Source: a virus. From it: a stretch of DNA of 26,200 nucleotides. The stretch spans positions 1 through 26,200 of IMG/VR virus record IMGVR_UViG_3300042293_000109, one strand, 5' to 3'. Shown here one piece after another: positions 10,440-23,586 of this stretch. The number at the start of each line of letters is the position of its first letter. Positions within the stretch are counted from its first letter, which is position 1. A program made the position numbers and the translations under genes. The notes beneath the pieces were generated by a model. It saw only the letters and a list, made by a program, of their open reading frames with translations. It had not been told where the DNA came from and searched no databases.

Positions 10440-11776
10440 TGGCTAATATTATCTTTCCGCAAAGCCCATTTTTAGATCCTATGGGCAGACCTGCAAGAGA
10501 ATGGACGCAATGGCTGCAAAACCCTGACGTTCAAACACTTACGGCTGCTACTCTTAATGTTTCAAATGTAGTTTTGGATTTGCCGTTAGATGTTCAGTAC
10601 GGGGGAACAGGTTTATCGACAATCCCTACAAATGGTCAATTATTGATCGGTAATGGTACGGATTACACTTTAAGCACATTAACGGCGGGTACTGGGTTAA
10701 CGATTACAAACGCTGCTGGGTCAATTACGCCTAGAATTACAAACACAGGTGTCACGGCTGGCTCTTACGGTTCTGCATCGTCTGTTACGACTTTAACTGT
10801 AAACGCTCAAGGTCAATTGACGGTTGCGGGATCAGTAGCGATTGCAATTGCTGCAAGTCAGATTACCAGCGGCACGATTGCATCGGCTCGTATCTCAGGC
10901 TCGTATACAGGCATCACAGGCGTTGGAACGCTGACTGTTGGTACATGGAACGCCACAACAATCGGCACGGTCTACGGTGGCACAGGACTAACCAGTTACG
11001 CTACTGGCGATATTTTGTATGCGTCTGCTGCAAACACTTTGTCTAAATTAGCGAAGCCAACAGCCAACTCCTATTTAGCGATGACTTCAACGGGTGTGCC
11101 TAGTTGGAAGAATCCTAAATATGGCACGTTTTACAATACAACAACTGAAACCGTTGGCATCATCAATACGGCGTATCCACTTAATTTTGATACAACAGAC
11201 TTGAGCAATGGCGTGACAGTTGCAACGACTGCTGCGGTGGTAACGGGCAGCATTGCACTATTTGTGTTGACTGTCACAGCGGTCACAAGCGGCACATTGT
11301 CGATTGGACAAGTCATTAGCGGAACAGGCGTGACTGTTGGAACTCGGATTGTTGCGTTTGTATCTGGATCGGGCGGTGTTGGTACTTATACGTTAGATAA
11401 ATCACAAACTGTTTTAAGCACAACGATTTCAGCAACTAAGCAATCAAGATTAACGGTATCGGCTGATGGTGTGTACAACTTTCAGTTTTCTTGCCAACTT
11501 GATAAAACAAGTGCAACTGCTAAAAGCCTTTATATATGGCCTCGTATTAATGATGTTGATGTAACTAACTCAGCAACAGAAGTTACATTATCTGGCTCAA
11601 ATGCTGCGACTGTTGCGGCATGGAACTTTGTTTATAACTTGTCGGCTAATAGTTATTTTGAGCTAATGTGGTCTGCGGAAGATACGGGTTGCATTATGCC
11701 CGCATCGGCAGCGGCTGCACCAGTTCCTGCAATACCAGCAATCATTATGACGGTAATTAACAATATCAGCGTATGA
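10439..11776 (+). CDS. Tail needle- or fibre-like protein with C1q/TNF-type knob and inserted domain
   Basis: This 445-residue protein occupies the position of the P22 tail needle gene (gp26) but is built like a fibre. Residues 1-30 form a virion-binding segment ([20 protein letters not shown]). Then come Gly/Thr-rich fibre repeats containing YGGTGL at 54-59 and 179-184. The C-terminus (about 228-445) looks like a C1q/TNF-type jelly-roll ([14 protein letters not shown], then [14 protein letters not shown]). A module at about 268-333 interrupts that jelly-roll. Some needles carry a TNF-like knob, so a needle role fits, but a side fibre is also possible. Confidence 0.75.
11240..11437 (+). other. 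Second copy of the inserted beta-rich domain, inside the fibre knob
   Basis: This covers residues of about 268-333 of the fibre/needle protein. It shares ordered motifs with the insertion at 7354-7554 at roughly half identity by eye. It separates the strand ending SNGVTV from the strand [12 protein letters not shown], which would otherwise be neighbours in the jelly-roll. Confidence 0.6.
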
Positions 11777-12138
11777 GCGCACTATTTATGATCTATAAAT
11801 CTGTAGAAAATAGATTGCCATTTGGATTTGATGAGTTTAGTGAAGCGGTAAAAGAATGGGAAATAATCCCTGTAATACAGCGAGGCAAGTTATTTGGTGG
11901 GGTAATGGTCAAAGGCAATGAAATTCATGTTGGATTTGCTGAAAAGCCCACGGCAAGTATTCGGGGCAATATTAAGGCGGTATTAAAGCCATTGTTTGAA
12001 AAGCATGGTTTTGTGGTTACAACGGTAAAAAAAGACAATATAAACGGTTTAAATTTCTGTAAACGGCTTGGATTTGTTGAATCTGGGCAAGATAGCGATA
12101 AAATCTTATTGAAGTGTGACGGGAGTCATTATGTTTAA
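11773..12138 (+). CDS. GNAT-like acetyltransferase-fold protein
   Basis: This 121-residue protein begins in an ATGA overlap with the fibre gene. The order of strands ([20 protein letters not shown]), a helix ([18 protein letters not shown]), [16 protein letters not shown] and [10 protein letters not shown] follows a GNAT N-acetyltransferase fold. The R/QxxGxG acetyl-CoA loop is not canonical (only IRGNIK is seen), so activity is doubtful. GNAT-like proteins occur among short-tailed-phage ejection or assembly genes. In this slot P22 has gp14, an assembly factor. A structural role is as likely as enzymatic acetylation. Confidence 0.65.
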
Positions 12139-13483
12139 AGTTTATCTCAGCCGAAAACAAACACGGGCAATGTCTAGCGAACATCCAGTCGGCGATCCGA
12201 CGGGTGGCGCAGCATACCGTGAATTGCGTGATCCAACAACTGCAATTGCTGCGTCAGCTGGGGCTAACCTACTCGGTTCTGTTATCGGTGGTCAAGCGTC
12301 TAAATCTGCGTCTAAAACTCAAGCTAACGCAGCAGCAAATGCGGCAGCAGCACAACAACGCATTGCATCGCAACAAATTGAAGATATGCAAAAGATGCGG
12401 GCGCAGCAGATTATTGAGCTGCAAAACGCTCAAACTGATGCTATTAACCGTGGTCAGCGGGATAGAGCTTCTGCTATTCAAACGCTTGTCGATCAACGTA
12501 CCGACGCATTGGCTCGCATTTACGGATCAAAAGACGCTGCTTTAAACGTAATTAACGCTCAACGTTCAGACGCTTTAGCAACAATTGGCGAACAACGTGG
12601 CGAGGCGGCTCAAACGTTTCAACCCTATATGCAAGTGGGGCAACAAGGCGTTGGTGCGATTAGTCAGCAACTGCCGTATTTTCAACAAACTTTTGGGCCA
12701 GAGCAGTTTAAAGCAAACCTAGATCCTGGCTACGAGTTTATGAAGCAACAAGGTCTTGGCGCAATCCGTCAAGGCATGAACGTCGGGGGCGGCGGCTCTA
12801 ACATTGATCGAGCAGCTACTAAGTTTGCCGAAGATTATGCCAACACGGGGTATCAAAACGCTTACAACCGTTTTACAGGTCAACAACAAAACATTTATAA
12901 CCGTCTTGCAGGTATTGCGGGGATTGGTCAAACAGCTACGGGGCAATCTGCACAAACAGGGTTAGGTTACGGTCAACTTGGCGCACAAACAGGTCTAGGC
13001 TACGGTCAATTAGGCGCACAAACAGGGTTAGGTTACGAAACTCTTGGGGCGCAAACGGGTCTTGGGTATGGCACAGCAATGGCTAATACAGGTCTAGGTT
13101 ACGATCAAATGATTGGTAATCAGCAACTTGGTTTTGGTCAGACAATGGCTAGTTTTAACCAAGGAACAGGCGCAAACATTGCTAACTTAGCAACAGGCAT
13201 GGGTACAGCGCAGGCGCAAGGCATCACAGGACAAGCACAAGCACAGGCCGCGGGTGATGTTGGTCAAGCCAATATTTACGCTGGTGCGTTAGGCAATCTT
13301 GGACAGCTTGGTACGCAATATTCTTACTTGCAATCACCTGCAATTCAGAAAGCGTTACAAATAGGGCCATATGCGCCACAAACAGGATCAACACCAATAA
13401 GCGGGGCTAGTCCAACTGGATTGCCTGTGGGCGGGGGCAGCAGCATTATGGTGGGCGGCTCGCCTACCTACACAGTAGCATAA
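12131..13483 (+). CDS. Ejection (DNA transfer) protein candidate with Gly/Gln repeats
   Basis: This 450-residue protein probably sits inside the capsid and is injected with DNA, like P22 gp7/gp20. The N-terminal region has a short hydrophobic stretch (AASAGANLLGSVIGG, about 43-57), then a long Ala/Gln-rich coiled coil to about residue 155. Residues 275-340 carry six 11-residue repeats with consensus QTGLGYGQLGA. The tail is low in charge. ATG 12131 follows GGGAG with good spacing. It overlaps the previous gene by 8 bases. The ejection role is inferred from composition, size and position. Confidence 0.7.
   Translation: MFKVYLSRKQTRAMSSEHPVGDPTGGAAYRELRDPTTAIAASAGANLLGSVIGGQASKSASKTQANAAANAAAAQQRIASQQIEDMQKMRAQQIIELQNAQTDAINRGQRDRASAIQTLVDQRTDALARIYGSKDAALNVINAQRSDALATIGEQRGEAAQTFQPYMQVGQQGVGAISQQLPYFQQTFGPEQFKANLDPGYEFMKQQGLGAIRQGMNVGGGGSNIDRAATKFAEDYANTGYQNAYNRFTGQQQNIYNRLAGIAGIGQTATGQSAQTGLGYGQLGAQTGLGYGQLGAQTGLGYETLGAQTGLGYGTAMANTGLGYDQMIGNQQLGFGQTMASFNQGTGANIANLATGMGTAQAQGITGQAQAQAAGDVGQANIYAGALGNLGQLGTQYSYLQSPAIQKALQIGPYAPQTGSTPISGASPTGLPVGGGSSIMVGGSPTYTVA
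12953..13150 (+). repeat. Six in-frame 33-bp tandem repeats
   Basis: The units start at 12953, 12986, 13019, 13052, 13085 and 13118. Each encodes 11 residues around QTGLGYGQLGA. The first two are nearly identical in protein and later units drift (NTGLGYDQMIG, NQQLGFGQTMA). Synonymous differences between units show that the protein sequence is being kept. Confidence 0.85.
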
Positions 13484-18541: not shown

Positions 18542-19102
18542 ATGATGAAAACGCTTACTGTAGTCAGTACCGTTATCTTGTTTTGGGTTTTAGCTCTATT
18601 TTCTACAGCGCAAGCACAGATTGCCATCTGCAAAGGCGAATACGCTTTGTGTGCAGCCTCGCCAACGACTTTGACGGGCAAGTCTATATCTGTGGCAGGC
18701 AAGACGTTTAAAGAGGGCGTAGCGGTCTGTCCTGTGCTTACTGGCGATGCTGTGGCGAACATGACGCTGATGCAAGGATCGTGTGACGCACCAAAGGGTA
18801 AAGTATGGAGTCTGTTTGGTGTGCCACCATTGACTGCCTATCCACAAGCACCGGATTGGTCGGTTCAGCCTGCGGTGTTTCGCTCATTTAAAGTGGGTGA
18901 CACGCCAACCACAGGTATGTCAAATATGTGGTCATTTCTGTGTACTAAGCAAACTAAGCAAGTTAATGGCGTGACGCTAGCTAGTTGCTACGGGCCAGTC
19001 ATGGAGTCACCTTGGACTGGCAACCATGTTGTAAGTGGAGAGACTGCGTTTACACAAGCACCAGTCGGGGCTACTTACCCCGTTGGCGGCAATGTTCCGT
19101 AG
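18542..19102 (+). CDS. Secreted Cys-containing protein of unknown function
   Basis: This 186-residue protein has a clear signal peptide: MMK start, hydrophobic core (VVSTVILFWVLALFS) and a likely cleavage after AQA at residue 25. The mature part has six Cys, enough for three disulfides in the periplasm. It lacks a lipobox and the long coiled coil expected for Rz/Rz1 spanins, although it occupies the place of spanin genes. AGGTGAC precedes the start. It could be an accessory gene that acts on the host envelope, such as superinfection exclusion. The 3' end overlaps the convergent gene by 32 bases. Confidence 0.65.
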   Translation: MMKTLTVVSTVILFWVLALFSTAQAQIAICKGEYALCAASPTTLTGKSISVAGKTFKEGVAVCPVLTGDAVANMTLMQGSCDAPKGKVWSLFGVPPLTAYPQAPDWSVQPAVFRSFKVGDTPTTGMSNMWSFLCTKQTKQVNGVTLASCYGPVMESPWTGNHVVSGETAFTQAPVGATYPVGGNVP

Positions 19103-19292
19103 GTTTGTAGAAATTAGTGCAATACGCACACATTCCTTGTCGCAGCTCGCTAGACACTTGACCGCAACCATCACAAATCCAATCTTTGGGATATGTCGGC
19201 GGCTTGCGTCTAGTGCGATACATGAAGATCATGCCACCAACCGTGATTGCGGCAGACAAGTAAAACACAAACATCCAATCCCAGATTGTCAT
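19071..19292 (-). CDS. Small membrane protein with zinc-ribbon motif
   Basis: This 73-residue protein has one membrane helix (residues of about 4-24, WDWMFVFYLSAAITVGGMIF), a basic stretch (YRTRRK) and then two CxxC pairs (C40/C43 and C55/C58), a probable zinc ribbon facing the cytoplasm. A near-perfect GGAGGTG ribosome-binding site precedes the start, which overlaps the upstream stop as ATGA. It is the last gene of the minus-strand operon. Its function is unknown. Confidence 0.65.
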   Translation of the reverse strand: MTIWDWMFVFYLSAAITVGGMIFMYRTRRKPPTYPKDWICDGCGQVSSELRQGMCAYCTNFYKPTEHCRQRGK

Positions 19293-19546
19293 TTCACACC
19301 TCCAGACATGGCACGATCAACTTCAAAATTCATTTGAGGTTCAGTCACCATGAATAACTGCGATGTGTATTTGTTCAGCCAACGATAGCGTAGCGCATCT
19401 CTGCGTAAACGTTCAATCTCTGTTGCATTTGATTCTAGCTCTGCTTTCAACTCACGGGCAACAAATAGAGCTTCATCCATTCTTTTAGACCACACAGACG
19501 GTGGTGCTACCAGTAGCGCATCAATGATTAAGTCAATTTTCCCCAT
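19289..19546 (-). CDS. Small phage protein, unknown function
   Basis: This 85-residue protein has a helical first half, then a charged heptad-like stretch and the segment RLRRDALRYRWLNKY, which is a recurring pattern in short phage early proteins of unknown function. An AGGATAATC site precedes the ATG. It overlaps its neighbours on both sides, which supports one operon. Confidence 0.65.
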   Translation of the reverse strand: MGKIDLIIDALLVAPPSVWSKRMDEALFVARELKAELESNATEIERLRRDALRYRWLNKYTSQLFMVTEPQMNFEVDRAMSGGVK

Positions 19547-19730
19547 GATTATCCTTTTGGTTTAACTGGCGGCGCAAAGCAAAGATTTGATCGGCAAACT
19601 CAATCAATCCCTCCCGCAGTGATTTGTTAGATTCTTGCAAATTTCTTATGTACTCAGCGGCCTCAATTTGTTCTTCAGGTTTCATCACATACCCGTGTTC
19701 TAGGTAGCGCAGAATGTTGTCAGGTGTCAT
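19533..19730 (-). CDS. Small helical protein, unknown function
   Basis: This 65-residue, mostly helical and charged protein contains PEEQIEAAEYIRNLQESN and EFADQIFALRRQL. It is probably a coiled coil. AAGGATCAGCC provides a ribosome-binding site. It overlaps the next gene by 14 bases and the previous one by 4. No family is recognised. Confidence 0.6.
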   Translation of the reverse strand: MTPDNILRYLEHGYVMKPEEQIEAAEYIRNLQESNKSLREGLIEFADQIFALRRQLNQKDNHGEN

Positions 19731-19939
19731 GGCTGATCCTTGTCTAAAGCATACAGAGCTGTATATAGATGCGGAAGGGTCGTATTGTTAATCAACACAC
19801 CTTTATCCCCAATGAACCCTATAGGTTTTAATTTAGCTAGATTGTCAGCAGCCTGGCGAAAGGCACAAGGATTAAATTCAGCGTTGCAGCGACCACCGCA
19901 AGCCTCTTTAAACAGATGGATATAGTCGGCCTTGTTCAT
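19727..19939 (-). CDS. Small phage protein, unknown function
   Basis: This 70-residue protein contains three Cys (14, 18, 25) in its N-terminal helix region and a beta-type middle (KPIGFIGDKGVLI). The ribosome-binding site is weak, but the start overlaps the stop of the winged-helix gene as ATGA, so coupled translation is likely. The function cannot be read from the sequence. Confidence 0.55.
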   Translation of the reverse strand: MNKADYIHLFKEACGGRCNAEFNPCAFRQAADNLAKLKPIGFIGDKGVLINNTTLPHLYTALYALDKDQP

Positions 19940-20208
19940 AAACGCAGTCCAAACGGGTTGTGAGCGTGTTTAACAACGAGGTTTTCGTAATTGTCTGAGG
20001 ATTGTGTAGCAGTCGGTGCTTGTCGAATAGTGACATAAACACAAGGTGAGCCACGCCTACCATCCCCACGTTTCTCAATCTTGTTGTTGCGCTGAAGTTT
20101 GGCAAGTTGAGTGTAAATGCTGATCTTTTCAAGGCCACAGTAATCAGCAATATCAACTGTTGTTTTAGGCTCAATGCAATACCGCAATATCTTTTGTTCT
20201 GTTGACAT
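19936..20208 (-). CDS. Winged-helix DNA-binding protein
   Basis: This 90-residue protein has a predicted winged helix-turn-helix: helix 1 (EQKILRYCI), helix 2 (TTVDIADYCGL), recognition helix (KISIYTQLAKLQRNNKI) and a wing (EKRGDGRRGSPCVYVTI). It probably regulates phage genes or assists replication. GGAG lies ahead of the ATG. It heads the five-gene minus-strand operon and is preceded by a promoter with the shared operator (20229-20257). The protein at 23764 has a similar layout. Confidence 0.7.
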   Translation of the reverse strand: MSTEQKILRYCIEPKTTVDIADYCGLEKISIYTQLAKLQRNNKIEKRGDGRRGSPCVYVTIRQAPTATQSSDNYENLVVKHAHNPFGLRL

Positions 20209-20228
20209 ATGTTCTCCATAAAAGCATC

Positions 20229-20257
20229 ACATTAAGCCATCTAAACACAATGCACAA
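20229..20257 (-). promoter_or_regulatory. Promoter with shared operator for the minus-strand operon
   Basis: On the minus strand, TTGTGC (20257-20252) and TAATGT (20234-20229) are 17 bp apart. The spacer and -10 contain GTTTAGATGGCTTAAT (20246-20231), which matches the operator-like sequences at 21056 and 23110 in the same place relative to the -10. The -35 and -10 boxes are weak alone. The shared architecture is the main support. Confidence 0.55.
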
Positions 20258-20528
20258 GAGGTATTTATCTTAGTGATTACCCGTACTTTTATTATTTGGA
20301 CAATAGTATTCCCAAGGGTGGATAGCGTGTAGTTTCCCTACGCAGTCCAACTCGATCCATATTGTTTTATAACAGAACAATACCAATCCTACCGGAGTTA
20401 ATGTTCAATCGATTTAGAGTCTTGTCCCACCGTGTTCTCTAATCTTGTGTAGTCCCCATTTAAGGCTACGTGGCTTGCAGTCGGGTGTAGACCAGCCAAT
20501 CTTTCTTGAGTACCGGCGATTTAACCGT
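20258..20528 (-). other. Gene-free structured leader or second non-coding RNA
   Basis: No convincing gene is present. Frames on the minus strand are short and lack starts with ribosome-binding sites. Several hairpins are visible. TATTGTTTT/AGAACAATA (20360-20368 with 20374-20382) forms 9 bp around five bases. An arm region at 20322-20350 has GGA/TCC, GCG/CGC and TAG/CTA pairs closed on GGAAA (minus strand). A GGCTAC/GTAGACC stem lies at 20464-20493. With the promoter at 20529-20557 this would be transcribed toward the winged-helix gene. Confidence 0.4.
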
Positions 20529-20557
20529 ATTAGATAACGCTCTCTGACGGTTATCAA
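20529..20557 (-). promoter_or_regulatory. Candidate minus-strand promoter without operator
   Basis: TTGATA (20557-20552) and TCTAAT (20534-20529), each five of six consensus bases, are exactly 17 bp apart on the minus strand. The predicted start is near 20522. It lies just downstream of the small-RNA terminator and lacks the shared operator. Confidence 0.5.
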
Positions 20558-20562
20558 AAGAC

Positions 20563-20667
20563 AAATAAAAAAGCCGTTTTAGAGTGTATTTTGTTGGCAG
20601 ACCCTTTCGGGACATTCTCTATCGGCTTCAAGGCGCAAGAGAATCAAAATACACACTAAAACGGCTT
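20563..20667 (-). terminator. Long-stem rho-independent terminator of the small RNA
   Basis: The arms 20667-20645 and 20593-20571 are complementary except for one mismatch (20655 against 20583). On the minus strand they are followed by six T, one A and three T (20572-20563). The loop of 51 bases itself folds into two hairpins. On the plus strand no T-run follows, so the direction is minus. Confidence 0.7.
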
Positions 20668-20687
20668 ACATCGTCTGCCAAGACAAC
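20564..20687 (-). ncRNA. Candidate small RNA of about 124 nt with GNRA hairpin and long terminator stem
   Basis: A promoter at 20694-20722 predicts a start near G20687. The RNA holds, in order, a 9-base segment TTGGCAGAC (20681-20673), the 5' arm of a long stem (20667-20645), a 7-bp hairpin (20644-20638 with 20620-20614), a CCC-GAAA-GGG hairpin with a GNRA tetraloop (20611-20602), the complement of the first segment (20602-20594) and the 3' arm (20593-20571). The long stem pairs 22 of 23 positions and is followed by a T-run. The 5' segment can pair perfectly with 20602-20594, competing with the long stem. No ORF is present. Confidence 0.6.
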
Positions 20688-20693
20688 AATGCA

Positions 20694-20722
20694 ATTCTGC
20701 CACCGTCTTTCCGATGTGTCAA
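20694..20722 (-). promoter_or_regulatory. Promoter of the candidate small RNA
   Basis: A perfect TTGACA (20722-20717) is separated by 17 bp from CAGAAT (20699-20694, four of six) on the minus strand. It lies about 70 bases past the Cro-like gene's stop and has no copy of the shared operator, so it may be constitutive. Confidence 0.55.
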
Positions 20723-20794
20723 GCCCTGAAGCTAGGCTAGTGAAACACGACCCTTATCATTGATGAGTTTCTGCTTGCTAAAGGCTTAATCAGT

Positions 20795-21010
20795 CTATCG
20801 TAAGTCAGGCCAAATTTGTGACCAGTTAGGAATTTCTTTTCTTGACCATTTGCCTGCTGATTTCTTTTCAAGCTCGGTGGCCAGTAACACTAGCTTGTCA
20901 CCAGGCAAACCATTGTTGCGCCATTGCGACACAGCTGGTGGACTGACACGGCAAAGCTTGGCTACAGCAAATGTGCCACCTAATGTTTGGATGATTTCTG
21001 TTGTATTCAT
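20795..21010 (-). CDS. Cro/YdaS-like helix-turn-helix regulator
   Basis: This 71-residue protein has a clear HTH: IIQTLGGTFAVAKLCRVS, the turn SPPAVSQWRNNG as recognition helix, then LPGDKLVLLATELEKKSAG and the tail WSRKEIPNWSQIWPDL. This layout is that of the YdaS-type Cro proteins of lambdoid phages and cryptic prophages. It diverges from the recombination operon, as Cro-like repressors do. No ribosome-binding site precedes the ATG, and the operator copy at 21011-21025 touches the start codon. The transcript may have a very short leader. It is the best candidate binder of the shared operator. Confidence 0.85.
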   Translation of the reverse strand: MNTTEIIQTLGGTFAVAKLCRVSPPAVSQWRNNGLPGDKLVLLATELEKKSAGKWSRKEIPNWSQIWPDLR

Positions 21011-21025
21011 GTTAGATAGCTTAAC
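21011..21025. promoter_or_regulatory. Operator copy abutting the Cro-like start codon
   Basis: GTTAGATAGCTTAAC (plus strand) matches the core of the operators in the spacers at 21056 and 23110. It directly precedes the minus-strand ATG (21010-21008), so binding would block Cro-like gene expression. A weak -10 candidate TACAAA lies at 21040-21035. I see no convincing -35. Confidence 0.5.
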
Positions 21026-21044
21026 AGATGAGGTTTTGTATGTG

Positions 21045-21073
21045 TTGACTTATCTGTTTAGATACCTTAATAT
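21045..21073 (+). promoter_or_regulatory. Promoter and operator for the recombination operon
   Basis: TTGACT (21045-21050) and TAATAT (21068-21073) are 17 bp apart. The spacer holds TATCT-GTTT-AGATA (21051-21064), a perfect 5-bp dyad. A second dyad, TAGATA-CCTTAA-TATCTA (21059-21076), overlaps the -10 box. A dimer bound here would cover the promoter. The predicted start is near 21080. Confidence 0.7.
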
Positions 21074-21080
21074 CTATCTA

Positions 21081-21096
21081 CTGACATACCCGTCAG
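21081..21096 (+). other. 5'-terminal hairpin of the recombination transcript
   Basis: CTGAC and GTCAG form a 5-bp perfect stem with a 6-base loop starting at about +2 of the predicted transcript. No T-run follows. It may protect the mRNA 5' end or be part of regulation. Confidence 0.45.
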
Positions 21097-21116
21097 GACA
21101 ACATACAGGTGCATAA

Positions 21117-21680
21117 ATGAAAGAACTAGCAAAAGCATTAGTCACGGCGCAGGCAGCAATGTCACACGCAGCCAAAGATAGTAAAAATCCCCATTTTAAA
21201 TCTGCATACTCAAGTCTGGCATCAGTCATCGACGCTGTTAGACCGCATTTGTCTGCAAACGGATTAGCCGTTGTACAAAAGACACACGATGCCGAAGGTG
21301 GTGTTTGTGTGGAAACCGTGATTATTCACGAATCAGGTCAAGAAATGTCATTTGGCAAACTGTTTGTGCCTGCAAGCAAACACGACAGTCAGGGTTTCGG
21401 TTCAGCTTTGAGCTACGCAAAGAGGTACTCAATCCAAACCGCCATGTGCGTTGCGTCGGCTGACGATGATGGTGAATCTGCCGTTAAATCAGCGCCACCA
21501 AAGGTTGAAAAACCCAAAGGCATAGATATGGATGCAACAGTTGACCAAATGGCGGCAGCGGTCAGTTACGAAAGCCTGAAGGACATATTTAGACTGGCTT
21601 GGACACAATGCCTGAAAGAACAACAGCCCGTCTTAAAAGCAATGTATGACGGAATCAAAGCAAACTGGGAGAACCAATAA
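21117..21680 (+). CDS. erf: ERF-family single-strand annealing recombinase
   Basis: This 187-residue protein matches the ERF superfamily, first known from P22, which anneals complementary single strands in phage recombination and genome circularisation. Family signatures are the start LAKALVTAQAAMSHAAKDS with NPHFKSAYSSLASVIDAVRP, the strand GLAVVQKT and the block HDSQGFGSALSYAKRYSIQT, followed by a DDDGE acidic motif. The C-terminus is a variable helical region. AGGTG precedes the start. The SSB and exonuclease genes follow, so the three probably work together on DNA ends. Confidence 0.92.
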   Translation: MKELAKALVTAQAAMSHAAKDSKNPHFKSAYSSLASVIDAVRPHLSANGLAVVQKTHDAEGGVCVETVIIHESGQEMSFGKLFVPASKHDSQGFGSALSYAKRYSIQTAMCVASADDDGESAVKSAPPKVEKPKGIDMDATVDQMAAAVSYESLKDIFRLAWTQCLKEQQPVLKAMYDGIKANWENQ

Positions 21681-22111
21681 TGGCAAACGATCTTAACCGC
21701 TGCGAGTTTATTGGGCGCTTGGGCAAAGACCCTGAAGTACGTTACACCGCTGACAGTAATGCAATTTGTAATTTCTCAATTGCGGTTGGTTATAAGACCG
21801 CAACGAAAGAAACAACAGAATGGGTCAGGATCACAGCCTTTGGCAAGTTGGCAGGAATATGTGCCGACTACCTAAAAAAAGGCTCACAGGTCTTTATAGC
21901 GGGTCGTATGACTACTCGCAAGTGGCAAAACAAAGATGGCGTGGATCAGTACACAACAGAAGTCGTTGCTGACCAAATGCAAATGCTTGGTGGTCGGACG
22001 GCTGAAGATGCACCAGCTGCGCCTGCCAAACCCAAGTCTGACGCTTACAGGTCAATCAAAGAGGGGATTGTTGTGCCTCTTGATGAAATGATCGACGATG
22101 TGCCGTTCTGA
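21680..22111 (+). CDS. ssb: Single-stranded DNA-binding protein
   Basis: This 143-residue protein has the OB fold of bacterial SSB: NRCEFIGRLGKDPEVRYT, ICNFSIAVGY, TEWVRITAFGKLAGICADYL and KKGSQVFIAGRM. A Pro/Ala-rich linker leads to the acidic tip DDVPF, which resembles the DDIPF tip that binds partner proteins in bacteria. It begins in a TAATG junction with erf. It likely coats single strands made by the exonuclease and hands them to ERF. Confidence 0.95.
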   Translation: MANDLNRCEFIGRLGKDPEVRYTADSNAICNFSIAVGYKTATKETTEWVRITAFGKLAGICADYLKKGSQVFIAGRMTTRKWQNKDGVDQYTTEVVADQMQMLGGRTAEDAPAAPAKPKSDAYRSIKEGIVVPLDEMIDDVPF

Positions 22112-22254
22112 TGACTCAGACGGAGGAGGCAATACTTATTTCTTGGCGATTGCAGCAATGGTACGAAGGCATGGTTTTAGACGCTAGAGCCATGCAAGAC
22201 CTACAGGATGCAATCGAGATGCTTAAAACATTAGCTAAACAGGTGCAAAAATGA
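22111..22254 (+). CDS. 47-residue helical protein between ssb and the exonuclease
   Basis: ATG 22111 overlaps the ssb stop (TGATG), and its own stop overlaps the next ATG (ATGA at 22251-22254). The peptide is helical and acidic, with the segments SWRLQQWYEGMVLD and MQDLQDAIEMLKTLAK. No family is recognised. The perfect double coupling argues for a real gene. It may be a small partner of the recombination proteins. Confidence 0.65.
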   Translation: MTQTEEAILISWRLQQWYEGMVLDARAMQDLQDAIEMLKTLAKQVQK

Positions 22255-22985
22255 TTATTAAATCAGCAGACTCAGAATCAGGCCATTGGTACGCAGCTGA
22301 CGGTTCACCAGCGTATAAGATCATTGGCAAGAACGGCAAAGAACGCAACACAACGGTTCGTGACGCACGAGAACTTGGATTAAAGCCTAGCGTGACAACC
22401 GTGTTGGGATTGGTTGCCAAGCCTGGCTTATCCAACTGGCTGCAACAACAAGTATTACTAGCGGCTTTGACGTTGCCACGCATTGCTGGCGAAACAGAGG
22501 AAAACTGGCTAGAACGGGTAATGTCTGACAGCAAGAGTACGGGCCGTGACGCTATGGATCGTGGCACTCAAATGCATGGGGTGCTTGAGCGTTTTTACCG
22601 TGGCGAACAAGACGATTACCCTGTTTATGTTAATCAGGTTGATGCGTCAATCAGAATCCACTTTGGGCATGACCAGACTTGGGAGGCAGAACGCTCATTT
22701 GCGTATGAAGGGTTTGGCGGCAAAGTTGATTTGATTGCTGAAAACATCGTGATCGACTTTAAGAGCAAAGACAAGCTCGACAAGGTTGTGCCATATCACG
22801 AACAACTGATGCAACTGGCGGCTTACCGTGTCGGCCTTGGCAAACCAACAGCCAGATGCGCCAATGTGTTTTTTACTGCTGAAGGTGATGTGAAACTAAT
22901 TGAACATTCAGAGGATGATCTAGCCTCTGCATGGGATTGCTTTCAGTATTTACTTGCGTTCTACAAGCGTAAAAACAACTTATAA
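22251..22985 (+). CDS. PD-(D/E)XK exonuclease, RecB/Cas4-like
   Basis: This 244-residue protein carries the nuclease core in order: RGTQMHGVLERF with H109, acidic E147, then GGKVDLIAENIVIDFKSK with D160, D169 and K171, and YHEQLMQLAAY with Q188 and Y192. These match the RecB-like exonuclease fold. In this operon it is the likely 5'-3' exonuclease that resects double-strand ends for ERF annealing. No iron-sulfur Cys cluster of the Cas4 type is visible. A terminator follows 38 bases later. Confidence 0.85.
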   Translation: MIIKSADSESGHWYAADGSPAYKIIGKNGKERNTTVRDARELGLKPSVTTVLGLVAKPGLSNWLQQQVLLAALTLPRIAGETEENWLERVMSDSKSTGRDAMDRGTQMHGVLERFYRGEQDDYPVYVNQVDASIRIHFGHDQTWEAERSFAYEGFGGKVDLIAENIVIDFKSKDKLDKVVPYHEQLMQLAAYRVGLGKPTARCANVFFTAEGDVKLIEHSEDDLASAWDCFQYLLAFYKRKNNL

Positions 22986-23022
22986 TAAATTGTCGGTGTT
23001 GTTCACTCCTTGTTCCATCGAC

Positions 23023-23044
23023 CGCCCCGTAAATGGGGCGTTTT
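23023..23044 (+). terminator. Rho-independent terminator of the recombination operon
   Basis: CGCCCC (23023-23028) and GGGGCG (23035-23040) form a stem around GTAAAT and are followed by TTTTGTTGT. It lies between the exonuclease gene and the second early promoter. Confidence 0.85.
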
Positions 23045-23098
23045 GTTGTAAAAATCCAAATAAATCAAAAATAATTACAAAAACTAGGGTAAACACCT

Positions 23099-23127
23099 AT
23101 GAAATTACTGTTTAGATAGCTTAATAT
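23099..23127 (+). promoter_or_regulatory. Promoter and operator for the second early operon
   Basis: ATGAAA (23099-23104, four of six) and TAATAT (23122-23127) are 17 bp apart. CTGTTTAGATAGCTTAATAT (23108-23127) differs by one base from the 20 bases at the same place in the promoter at 21045. The second dyad arm is weaker here (TATTAG), so affinity may differ. The predicted start is near 23134. Confidence 0.6.
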
Positions 23128-23132
23128 TAGTC

Positions 23133-23147
23133 ATGGCAATTAGCCAT
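23133..23147 (+). other. 5'-terminal hairpin of the second early transcript
   Basis: ATGGC and GCCAT form a 5-bp perfect stem around AATTA at about +1 of the predicted transcript. It resembles in position the hairpin at 21081. The ribosome-binding sites of the first genes are also alike (AGGTGCATAA and AGGTACATAAA). Confidence 0.4.
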
Positions 23148-23172
23148 ACACACCACGATAAAGGTACATAAA

Positions 23173-23322
23173 ATGAGCAAATTGATTCGTAATTTTTTAG
23201 CATACCCATCAGATGAAGCACGAGCAAGATTGCAAAAGTATTTAACAAGACACCCAATGGCTGTTTGTTTGGCTACCCCAGAAGAAAATCAAATTCTTAA
23301 ACAACATGGGTTTAAGGGGTAA
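23173..23322 (+). CDS. 49-residue early protein, unknown function
   Basis: This is the first gene after the second operator-bearing promoter. ATG 23173 follows AAAGGTACATAA. The peptide starts MSKLIRNFLAYPSDEARARL and ends KQHGFKG. It is basic and helical, with one Cys. The next gene starts 3 bases after its stop. No family is recognised. Small first-expressed phage proteins often bind host factors, but that is only a general expectation. Confidence 0.65.
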   Translation: MSKLIRNFLAYPSDEARARLQKYLTRHPMAVCLATPEENQILKQHGFKG

Positions 23323-23325
23323 GCC

Positions 23326-23586
23326 ATGAAATACTCATACATTCAAATGACAGACGAAGGTAAACGCCAGCTGATGCGTGAACTTAGCCGTGAGCTGACC
23401 GACAAAAAGATTGCAGAGCTTATGGATCAATTTGCTGATGGCGTAAAAACAGATAGCAATGGCGAACCGTACATTAAGATTGATCGTGACGAGGTGTTGA
23501 TGTGTGCTGTGCCAATGTACACACATTTTATTGACGTTAACCACATTGAAACCGTCACCGCTAACGAGGAGGGCAGCGATGAATAA
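23326..23586 (+). CDS. Small acidic early protein, unknown function
   Basis: This 86-residue protein has a charged helical N-terminus (GKRQLMRELSRELTDKKIAE), then a beta-type C-terminus (PYIKIDRDEVLMC) and an acidic tail. GGTAAGCC precedes the start, a weak site, so it may be translated by coupling with the 49-residue gene. The function is not recognisable. Confidence 0.65.
   Translation: MKYSYIQMTDEGKRQLMRELSRELTDKKIAELMDQFADGVKTDSNGEPYIKIDRDEVLMCAVPMYTHFIDVNHIETVTANEEGSDE

Follow-up and report, generated by a model that had tools for sequence, protein, structure and literature searches.

A freshwater phage RNA family with a fast-changing, self-matching code

Behind the cro gene of an uncultivated freshwater phage lies a gene-free segment with a promoter-like sequence, a long stem resembling a terminator and a second, short pairing that seems to compete with it. 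Is a discrete small RNA encoded here, and what might its two pairings do? The window analysed is a virus record of 26.2 kb from a P22-like phage, with genes for a P22 coat protein, a phage stabilisation protein, ERF, SSB and a P22-type Cro. In this phage and its relatives, the small RNA sits mostly between the P22-type cro and either replication genes or large structured RNA elements. The features are as follows:

20795..21010, minus strand: P22-type cro gene, upstream of the RNA and in the same direction (PF14549 P22_Cro, 30.6 bits against a cut-off of 30.2)
20717..20722, minus strand: -35 hexamer TTGACA of the best promoter-like site of 19000-23400
20694..20699, minus strand: -10 hexamer CAGAAT with TG in front; predicted RNA start about 20687-20686
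20563..20687, minus strand: whole predicted small RNA, about 124 nt (match of 121.7 bits to model R1; one class A copy per phage genome)
20670..20687, minus strand: 5' hairpin H, GTTGTC/GACGAT (20687-20682 with 20675-20670), whose 6-nt loop holds the code
20673..20681, minus strand: code TTGGCAGAC, 5' strand of pairing P1, the exact reverse complement of 20602-20594
20645..20667, minus strand: 5' arm of the long terminator stem P2, with changes on both sides in 10/23 pairs
20614..20644, minus strand: inner hairpin 1, ATTCTCT/AGAGAAT, differing in size and sequence among relatives
20602..20611, minus strand: inner hairpin 2, CCC-GAAA-GGG, replaced by other short hairpins in relatives
20594..20602, minus strand: anticode GTCTGCCAA, 3' strand of P1, abutting the 3' arm of P2
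20571..20593, minus strand: 3' arm of the terminator stem P2, covarying
20563..20570, minus strand: intrinsic terminator T-run TTTTATTT, read from the sequence
20270..20548 (ends approximate), minus strand: D1, a larger structured noncoding element (15 relatives, 67 consensus pairs)
about 5483-5150 of the relative L070, minus strand: D2, a structured noncoding element (89 pairs, 98.7% of cells paired, 14 doubly changed)

A predicted transcript behind cro

A sequence-only reading had proposed a phage small RNA with its own promoter and two competing folds, and the parts it described were recovered to the base. The minus strand carries a perfect TTGACA, a 17-nt spacer and CAGAAT (10/12 in a consensus scan), and the long stem pairs 22/23 positions (20667-20645 with 20593-20571, with one T-T) before ending in TTTT-A-TTT. 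Both the 7-bp hairpin and the CCC-GAAA-GGG hairpin are present in its loop, and the 9-nt 5' segment is perfectly complementary to 20602-20594. That reading needs one correction, G20602 being common to the GNRA hairpin and the 9-bp pairing, and it had missed that the code segment is also the loop of its own 5' hairpin, that P1 is hypervariable and located in a U-turn-like hairpin loop, and that structured RNA elements or replication genes lie directly behind the terminator.

The RNA folds at -47.7 kcal/mol against -24.9 kcal/mol for shuffled sequences (z = -6.8), with 0/200 shuffles as stable. The plus strand folds almost as well as the minus strand, as any long inverted repeat also folds on the opposite strand; an RNA on the plus strand was rejected, because that strand has no T-run, promoter or P1 and because P1 is missing from the model matches on the reverse strand. 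The P2 terminator was not listed by a simple terminator scan because the loop limit of that scan is 8 nt.

Sequences upstream of the RNA fall into 23 groups with <60% identity between them. When promoters ending 10-14 nt ahead of the loop were counted, 16 of these 23 unrelated contexts had one scoring at least 8/12, against 4.8% in shuffles, and 12/23 had one scoring at least 9/12, against 1.1%; the L047 type has a longer cro gene, whose end the promoter overlaps. Since this fixed spacing is kept in most of the unrelated contexts, the 5' hairpin is most likely where transcription starts, and the RNA is most likely a defined transcript with its own promoter, as first proposed. Could the locus nevertheless be an ordinary transcription terminator behind cro, with the remainder incidental? 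A strong stem and a T-run do stand in the right place, but such a terminator would account neither for the fixed-distance promoter in unrelated contexts nor for the covarying P1 described below or the copies away from cro, and this already disfavoured explanation is highly improbable.

Two side observations concern the sequence ahead of the RNA. The spacer between the -35 and -10 hexamers (window 20716-20700, minus strand) contains a dyad around GAAAGA, which covaries between phages (CATCG..CGGTG, CTCTG..CAGAG, CCTCG..CGAGG) and is a candidate operator or hairpin in the upstream transcript. A conserved element lies between cro and the RNA promoter (window 20790-20725, minus strand), with the same stretch in L048, L050, L053 and L060; the cro-to-promoter interval holds one of two exchangeable conserved elements, GCCTTTAGCAAGC... 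with small dyads or TGTTGGTATGTGAAAGC...ACATACCAACA, which are candidates for antitermination-type RNA elements in the cro transcript.

Both pairings are conserved by compensatory change in a new RNA family

Scans of IMG/VR with the ERF protein, a Cro alignment and a stem pattern yielded over 200 loci. Class A, defined by a covarying long stem with T-run, a covarying 5'-loop pairing and its own promoter at a fixed distance, all present in the window RNA, has about 60 distinct homologues in freshwater phage contigs and is joined by a class B of the same design. A covariance model built on 24 class A sequences recovers the RNA at scores between 122 and about 54 bits. Among 29 whole records, 24 match this model at one locus each, with one weak extra match in one record, the second match listed per record being the same stem read on the other strand; records without a class A match, among those inspected, have another RNA class at the same place. 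A structural scan listed 90 distinct RNAs, and RNA length across the family ranges from about 95 to 147 nt. The linker is 4-6 nt and the P2 stem 22-23 bp in class A, with stem length hardly varying. Class B (L029, L030, L032, L033, L037, L075, L090, L166, L168 and others) is unlike class A in sequence and identical in the order of its parts; its linkers are 11-15 nt, and 13 of its P2 pairs are doubly changed; the class B count is depressed by four sequences shifted by one column.

That no known RNA family could be recognised had been stated at the outset, and Rfam agrees: version 15 gave 0 matches in the window at gathering score and nothing better than chance-level matches at E<=10, and there was no match at the RNA locus in 13 relatives. 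By these searches, the RNA is a new family, absent from Rfam.

Compensatory changes in both pairings, which the sequence-only reading had named as a check, do occur across related phages. In alignment A2, which leaves out a misaligned L028-type sub-class (P2 of 22 bp, pairing intact by inspection), the seven inner P1 pairs are Watson-Crick in 24/24 relatives, with no G-U. Six P1 pairs have changes on both sides, for 41 doubly changed cells, against 1-9 when the partner is slid by 1-3 columns and 10.6 when it is shuffled. For P2, 10 pairs are doubly changed, with 43 such cells and 0-6 after sliding. The 5' hairpin H is paired in 97% of cells across 24 relatives; because its changes are mostly G-C/G-U exchanges, its support is weaker and amounts to consistency rather than covariation. 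At least six of the seven P1 Watson-Crick pairs are kept in 58/58 distinct RNAs matched by the class A model on the sense strand, against mostly 1-4 on the reverse strand. In the 90-RNA catalogue, the absence of G-U is partly built in because the scan required Watson-Crick runs, and we base the no-G-U claim on A2 and the model matches, neither of which was selected on P1. The alignments show that the terminator stem and the code/anticode pairing are conserved by compensatory change.

Further RNAs were seen at or near this locus. In L038, L053 and L054, the small RNA behind cro is replaced by a third RNA type, whose terminator reads GCCCTAATAAGG...CCTTATTAGGGC; this type may be a third class, with a code pairing that is weak, short or doubtful. 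On the reverse strand of L228 (about 11760-12480), a class B and a class A RNA with different codes lie in tandem, with an HNH-endonuclease-like ORF between them.

Relatives of the window phage include MW202674 and MW202520, circular public genomes annotated as complete, from Manatee Spring, USA; in MW202674, small hypothetical proteins annotated on the opposite strand cover the RNA locus. Neither a tyrosine integrase (PF00589) nor an S24-type repressor (PF00717) was found in 24 records of the phage group, and most of these phages therefore look non-temperate, with the proviso that other types of integrase or repressor would escape a search for these two families. The result is virulent-looking lambdoid phages, in which cro, ERF and SSB are lambdoid yet this integrase and repressor were not found, and another regulator is conceivable on the same grounds. 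We found no isolated phage with a known host carrying the RNA, and an ERF search of bacterial genomes for cellular carriers gave nothing; among 22 matches to an RNA pattern search for such carriers, only one is real by model score, a phage-like contig (MAG L297) binned with a beta-proteobacterium. The cro region had no match in plasmids. Together with a Betaproteobacteria-1 RNA in L085 (472-599, plus strand), which lies behind the small RNA and replaces D1/D2, and an int-alpA RNA in L067 (9929-9995, plus strand), both from Rfam, the MAG contig hints at beta-proteobacterial hosts for the phage group.

A fast-changing code and where it can pair

The surprising part of this RNA family is its fast-changing, self-matching code. 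About 20 versions of the P1 loop occur family-wide, including TTGGTCG, TTGGCGG and CTGGCAG in L097, L177 and L182, and GTTGCAG and GTGACAG in L034 and L195. Class A pairs with identical 46-nt stem arms differ in their codes in 45% of cases, the mean code distance being 0.12 per side at a stem distance of zero. These comparisons show P1 as a hypervariable 'code' and 'anticode' that remain strictly complementary while their sequence changes quickly, the opposite of the behaviour expected from a pairing with a structural role alone, because every change needs a matching one opposite. The second base of the code loop is always U and the fourth nearly always a purine, the same preferences as in the U-turn loops of antisense RNAs, from which we infer that the code loop is U-turn-like.

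Where, then, is the partner of the code? Across 20 genomes, own 7-nt codes had 105 occurrences elsewhere, where genomes with other codes gave an expectation of 112; a separate code target in the phage genome was rejected for this lack of enrichment. No site was found to track the code except the anticode within the RNA. Since no second matching site is enriched in phage genomes, the P1 partner is the RNA itself, in cis or as another copy, and the earlier proposal that the tail could pair with a second molecule is narrowed to another copy of the same RNA. These patterns suggest that the RNA recognises copies of itself, probably controlling adjoining genes. The number of codes also bears on a role in trans, in which the code loop would be a seed for pairing with a host transcript and the anticode would lock that seed internally, silent until needed. 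An exposed seed-like 5' loop, a terminator tail and an own promoter recall many bacterial small RNAs, yet a single conserved host target is unlikely given about 20 codes within related phages, and we regard this explanation as very unlikely.

Whether P1 could form within one molecule depends on geometry. In class A, the P2 rod of 22-23 bp, about 62 Å, is joined by a linker of 4-6 nt. By our estimate, a kissing form with an intact 5' hairpin could not form in cis, and an open form of 7-9 bp would be just out of cis reach unless a few stem pairs fray. The proposal in the sequence-only reading that the two pairings exclude each other is thus likely right for class A but need not hold in class B; strict exclusion is not a family-wide rule because class B linkers are longer. 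These same linkers are long enough for a structural pseudoknot in cis, in which P1 would be part of the final fold of the free small RNA, stabilising it or binding a protein, apart from any read-through. Both P1 strands do lie in one RNA, with no other matching site, and the promoter and terminator define a discrete RNA. However, a class A linker would have to span a stem whose length hardly varies, and a pseudoknot of this kind gives no reason for codes to outpace the stem or to avoid G-U, which leaves it rather unlikely.

In another reading, the code of one molecule may pair with the anticode of the next, forming a homodimer or ring that would serve as a scaffold or particle like ROOL, GOLLD or phi29 pRNA. 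The rod has a constant length of 23 bp, about two turns, and presents the code at one end and the anticode at the other; nearly all code versions have a UNR-type hairpin loop, a type typical of fast loop-loop pairing. In the phage RNAs ROOL and GOLLD, moreover, covarying loop contacts proved to be intermolecular kissing contacts (PMC12286853), so covariation of this sort can be between molecules. Against a precise particle, the inner hairpins vary widely in size, which would be unusual, and fast code change would go unexplained unless mixing with related RNAs were harmful. We consider a homodimer or ring unlikely.

A tentative read-through switch and known systems

What lies behind the terminator gives read-through a possible purpose. 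In the window, D1 begins right behind the terminator with no room for its own promoter, and in the window and many other phages D1 or D2 starts within some 16-30 nt of the terminator. D1 has 91.5% of cells paired and 29 pairs with double changes in 15 relatives; neither element has an Rfam match, and D1, about 270 nt long, and D2, about 330 nt long, may each be a new RNA family. Because there is no promoter room between terminator and element, D1 and D2 must be made by read-through, and because they depend on it, control of the terminator would be worth having. Elsewhere, genes follow: in L025 and L029, a gene starts just past the T-run, with its ATG some 13-25 nt on (...ATTGGGGAAACCATG), and in L033 and L090 a large protein gene lies behind the RNA, the start of the L033 protein matching primosomal-protein families.

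The observed feature is genuine and defines a new RNA family; its mechanism is tentative. We give a probability of roughly 40% to the reading that it is a self-recognising attenuator or small RNA controlling read-through in lambdoid (P22-like) freshwater phages. While transcription is under way, the code would pair with the anticode before the 3' arm emerges, and P1 formation would block full closure of the terminator, letting the polymerase run into the structured element or replication genes. In a finished class A RNA, code and anticode would be held at opposite ends of a rod of ~23 bp, hardly able to meet in cis; such a finished copy could capture the code or anticode of a nascent copy and restore the terminator. 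Acting in this way, the RNA would restrict its own operon together with the operons of sister phages that share its code, and the advantage of escaping such cross-talk would make codes diversify. A read-through switch would in this way yield both self-limitation and exclusion of same-code relatives, which would explain why codes diversify.

Several lines of evidence point towards such a switch. P1 and P2 covariation, P1 on the sense strand, the fixed-distance promoter, code change, the lack of a second site and class B all appear to count for it, and so does the placement behind cro, directly ahead of genes (L025, L029, L033) or promoterless elements. The calculated energy of P1 (-10.4 +/- 1.6 kcal/mol) also differs little from the -10.8 +/- 0.8 kcal/mol of the outer nine P2 pairs, those at the terminator base that it would have to outlast. 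Other considerations count against it. P2 as a whole is calculated to be far more stable than P1 (about -31 vs -10 kcal/mol); a promoter-and-terminator cassette in varied contexts may function as a free small RNA, rather than a leader; and the absence of G-U in P1 fits any exact-match pairing. Immunity, moreover, is most readily understood in temperate phages, whereas the phages of this group look virulent. A self-coded system of RNA control or immunity in such phages, in which each phage type would have a loop code and matching anticode of its own, a finished copy would shut read-through only in genomes with the same code and escape would diversify the codes, as with plasmid incompatibility groups but built into one terminator RNA, is a doubtful proposition.

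The RNA is widespread in uncultivated freshwater phages, and its versions form a natural series of codes and anticodes on a fixed architecture, in which the question of RNA self versus non-self can be posed. If the RNA does tell self from non-self, these phages use RNA where their relatives use a repressor protein; if it does not, it would still represent a new RNA family, either a covarying pseudoknot or an RNA that forms dimers, whose contact is unusual and evolves fast. Other unassigned structured RNAs lie in the same hot spot.

Known phage RNAs resemble this one in part. HK022 put RNA consists of two adjacent stem-loops that act on RNA polymerase and make it terminator-resistant, and has no terminator of its own. 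It shares with the small RNA a place in a lambdoid early operon and a possible action on termination, whereas its architecture differs on inspection and the small RNA has its own terminator. The C4 antisense RNA of phages P1 and P7 (RF01695) is likewise a small phage RNA with short complementary segments, but it differs in structure and context, with no covariance model match. ROOL, GOLLD and phi29 pRNA are phage-coded structured RNAs with loop contacts; compared with ROOL and GOLLD, the small RNA is far smaller and unrelated in structure, with no Rfam match. The phi29 packaging RNA is needed for DNA packaging and forms a ring via loop contacts. A packaging role of this type is an idea suggested by analogy, a terminase large subunit being present, adjoined by a small-subunit candidate without a named family.

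Closer likenesses are found in plasmid and satellite phage control. In the repZ leader of IncI/IncB plasmids, a UUGGCG loop and a CGCCAA partner form a pseudoknot that is subject to the Inc antisense RNA. A UUGGCG-type hairpin loop with a distant complement is found in class B, some members of which carry TTGGCGG and CCGCCAA, and class A is analogous with other sequences; in some phages, the small RNA also precedes a replication gene. The distant complement lies directly upstream of the rep start codon in the plasmids, but before the terminator 3' arm here, and the sense transcript of the small RNA itself ends at the terminator, unlike the repZ leader. A consensus scan, which is weak evidence, gave no sigma-70-like antisense promoter on the plus strand near 20560-20700. 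In the CI RNA immunity of satellite phage P4, complementary RNA segments decide whether early-operon transcription terminates, and it is RNA pairing that gives the immunity its specificity. The likeness is that of a short phage RNA with complementary segments, the role in termination being established for P4 and only proposed here. The segments with which the P4 CI RNA pairs are outside it, in the leader, whereas both partners lie inside one terminated RNA in the present case, where separate leader sites of P4 type were not found (own code elsewhere, 105 against 112 expected). If the proposed switch operates, its logic resembles that of P4 CI RNA immunity and of plasmid copy-control RNAs.
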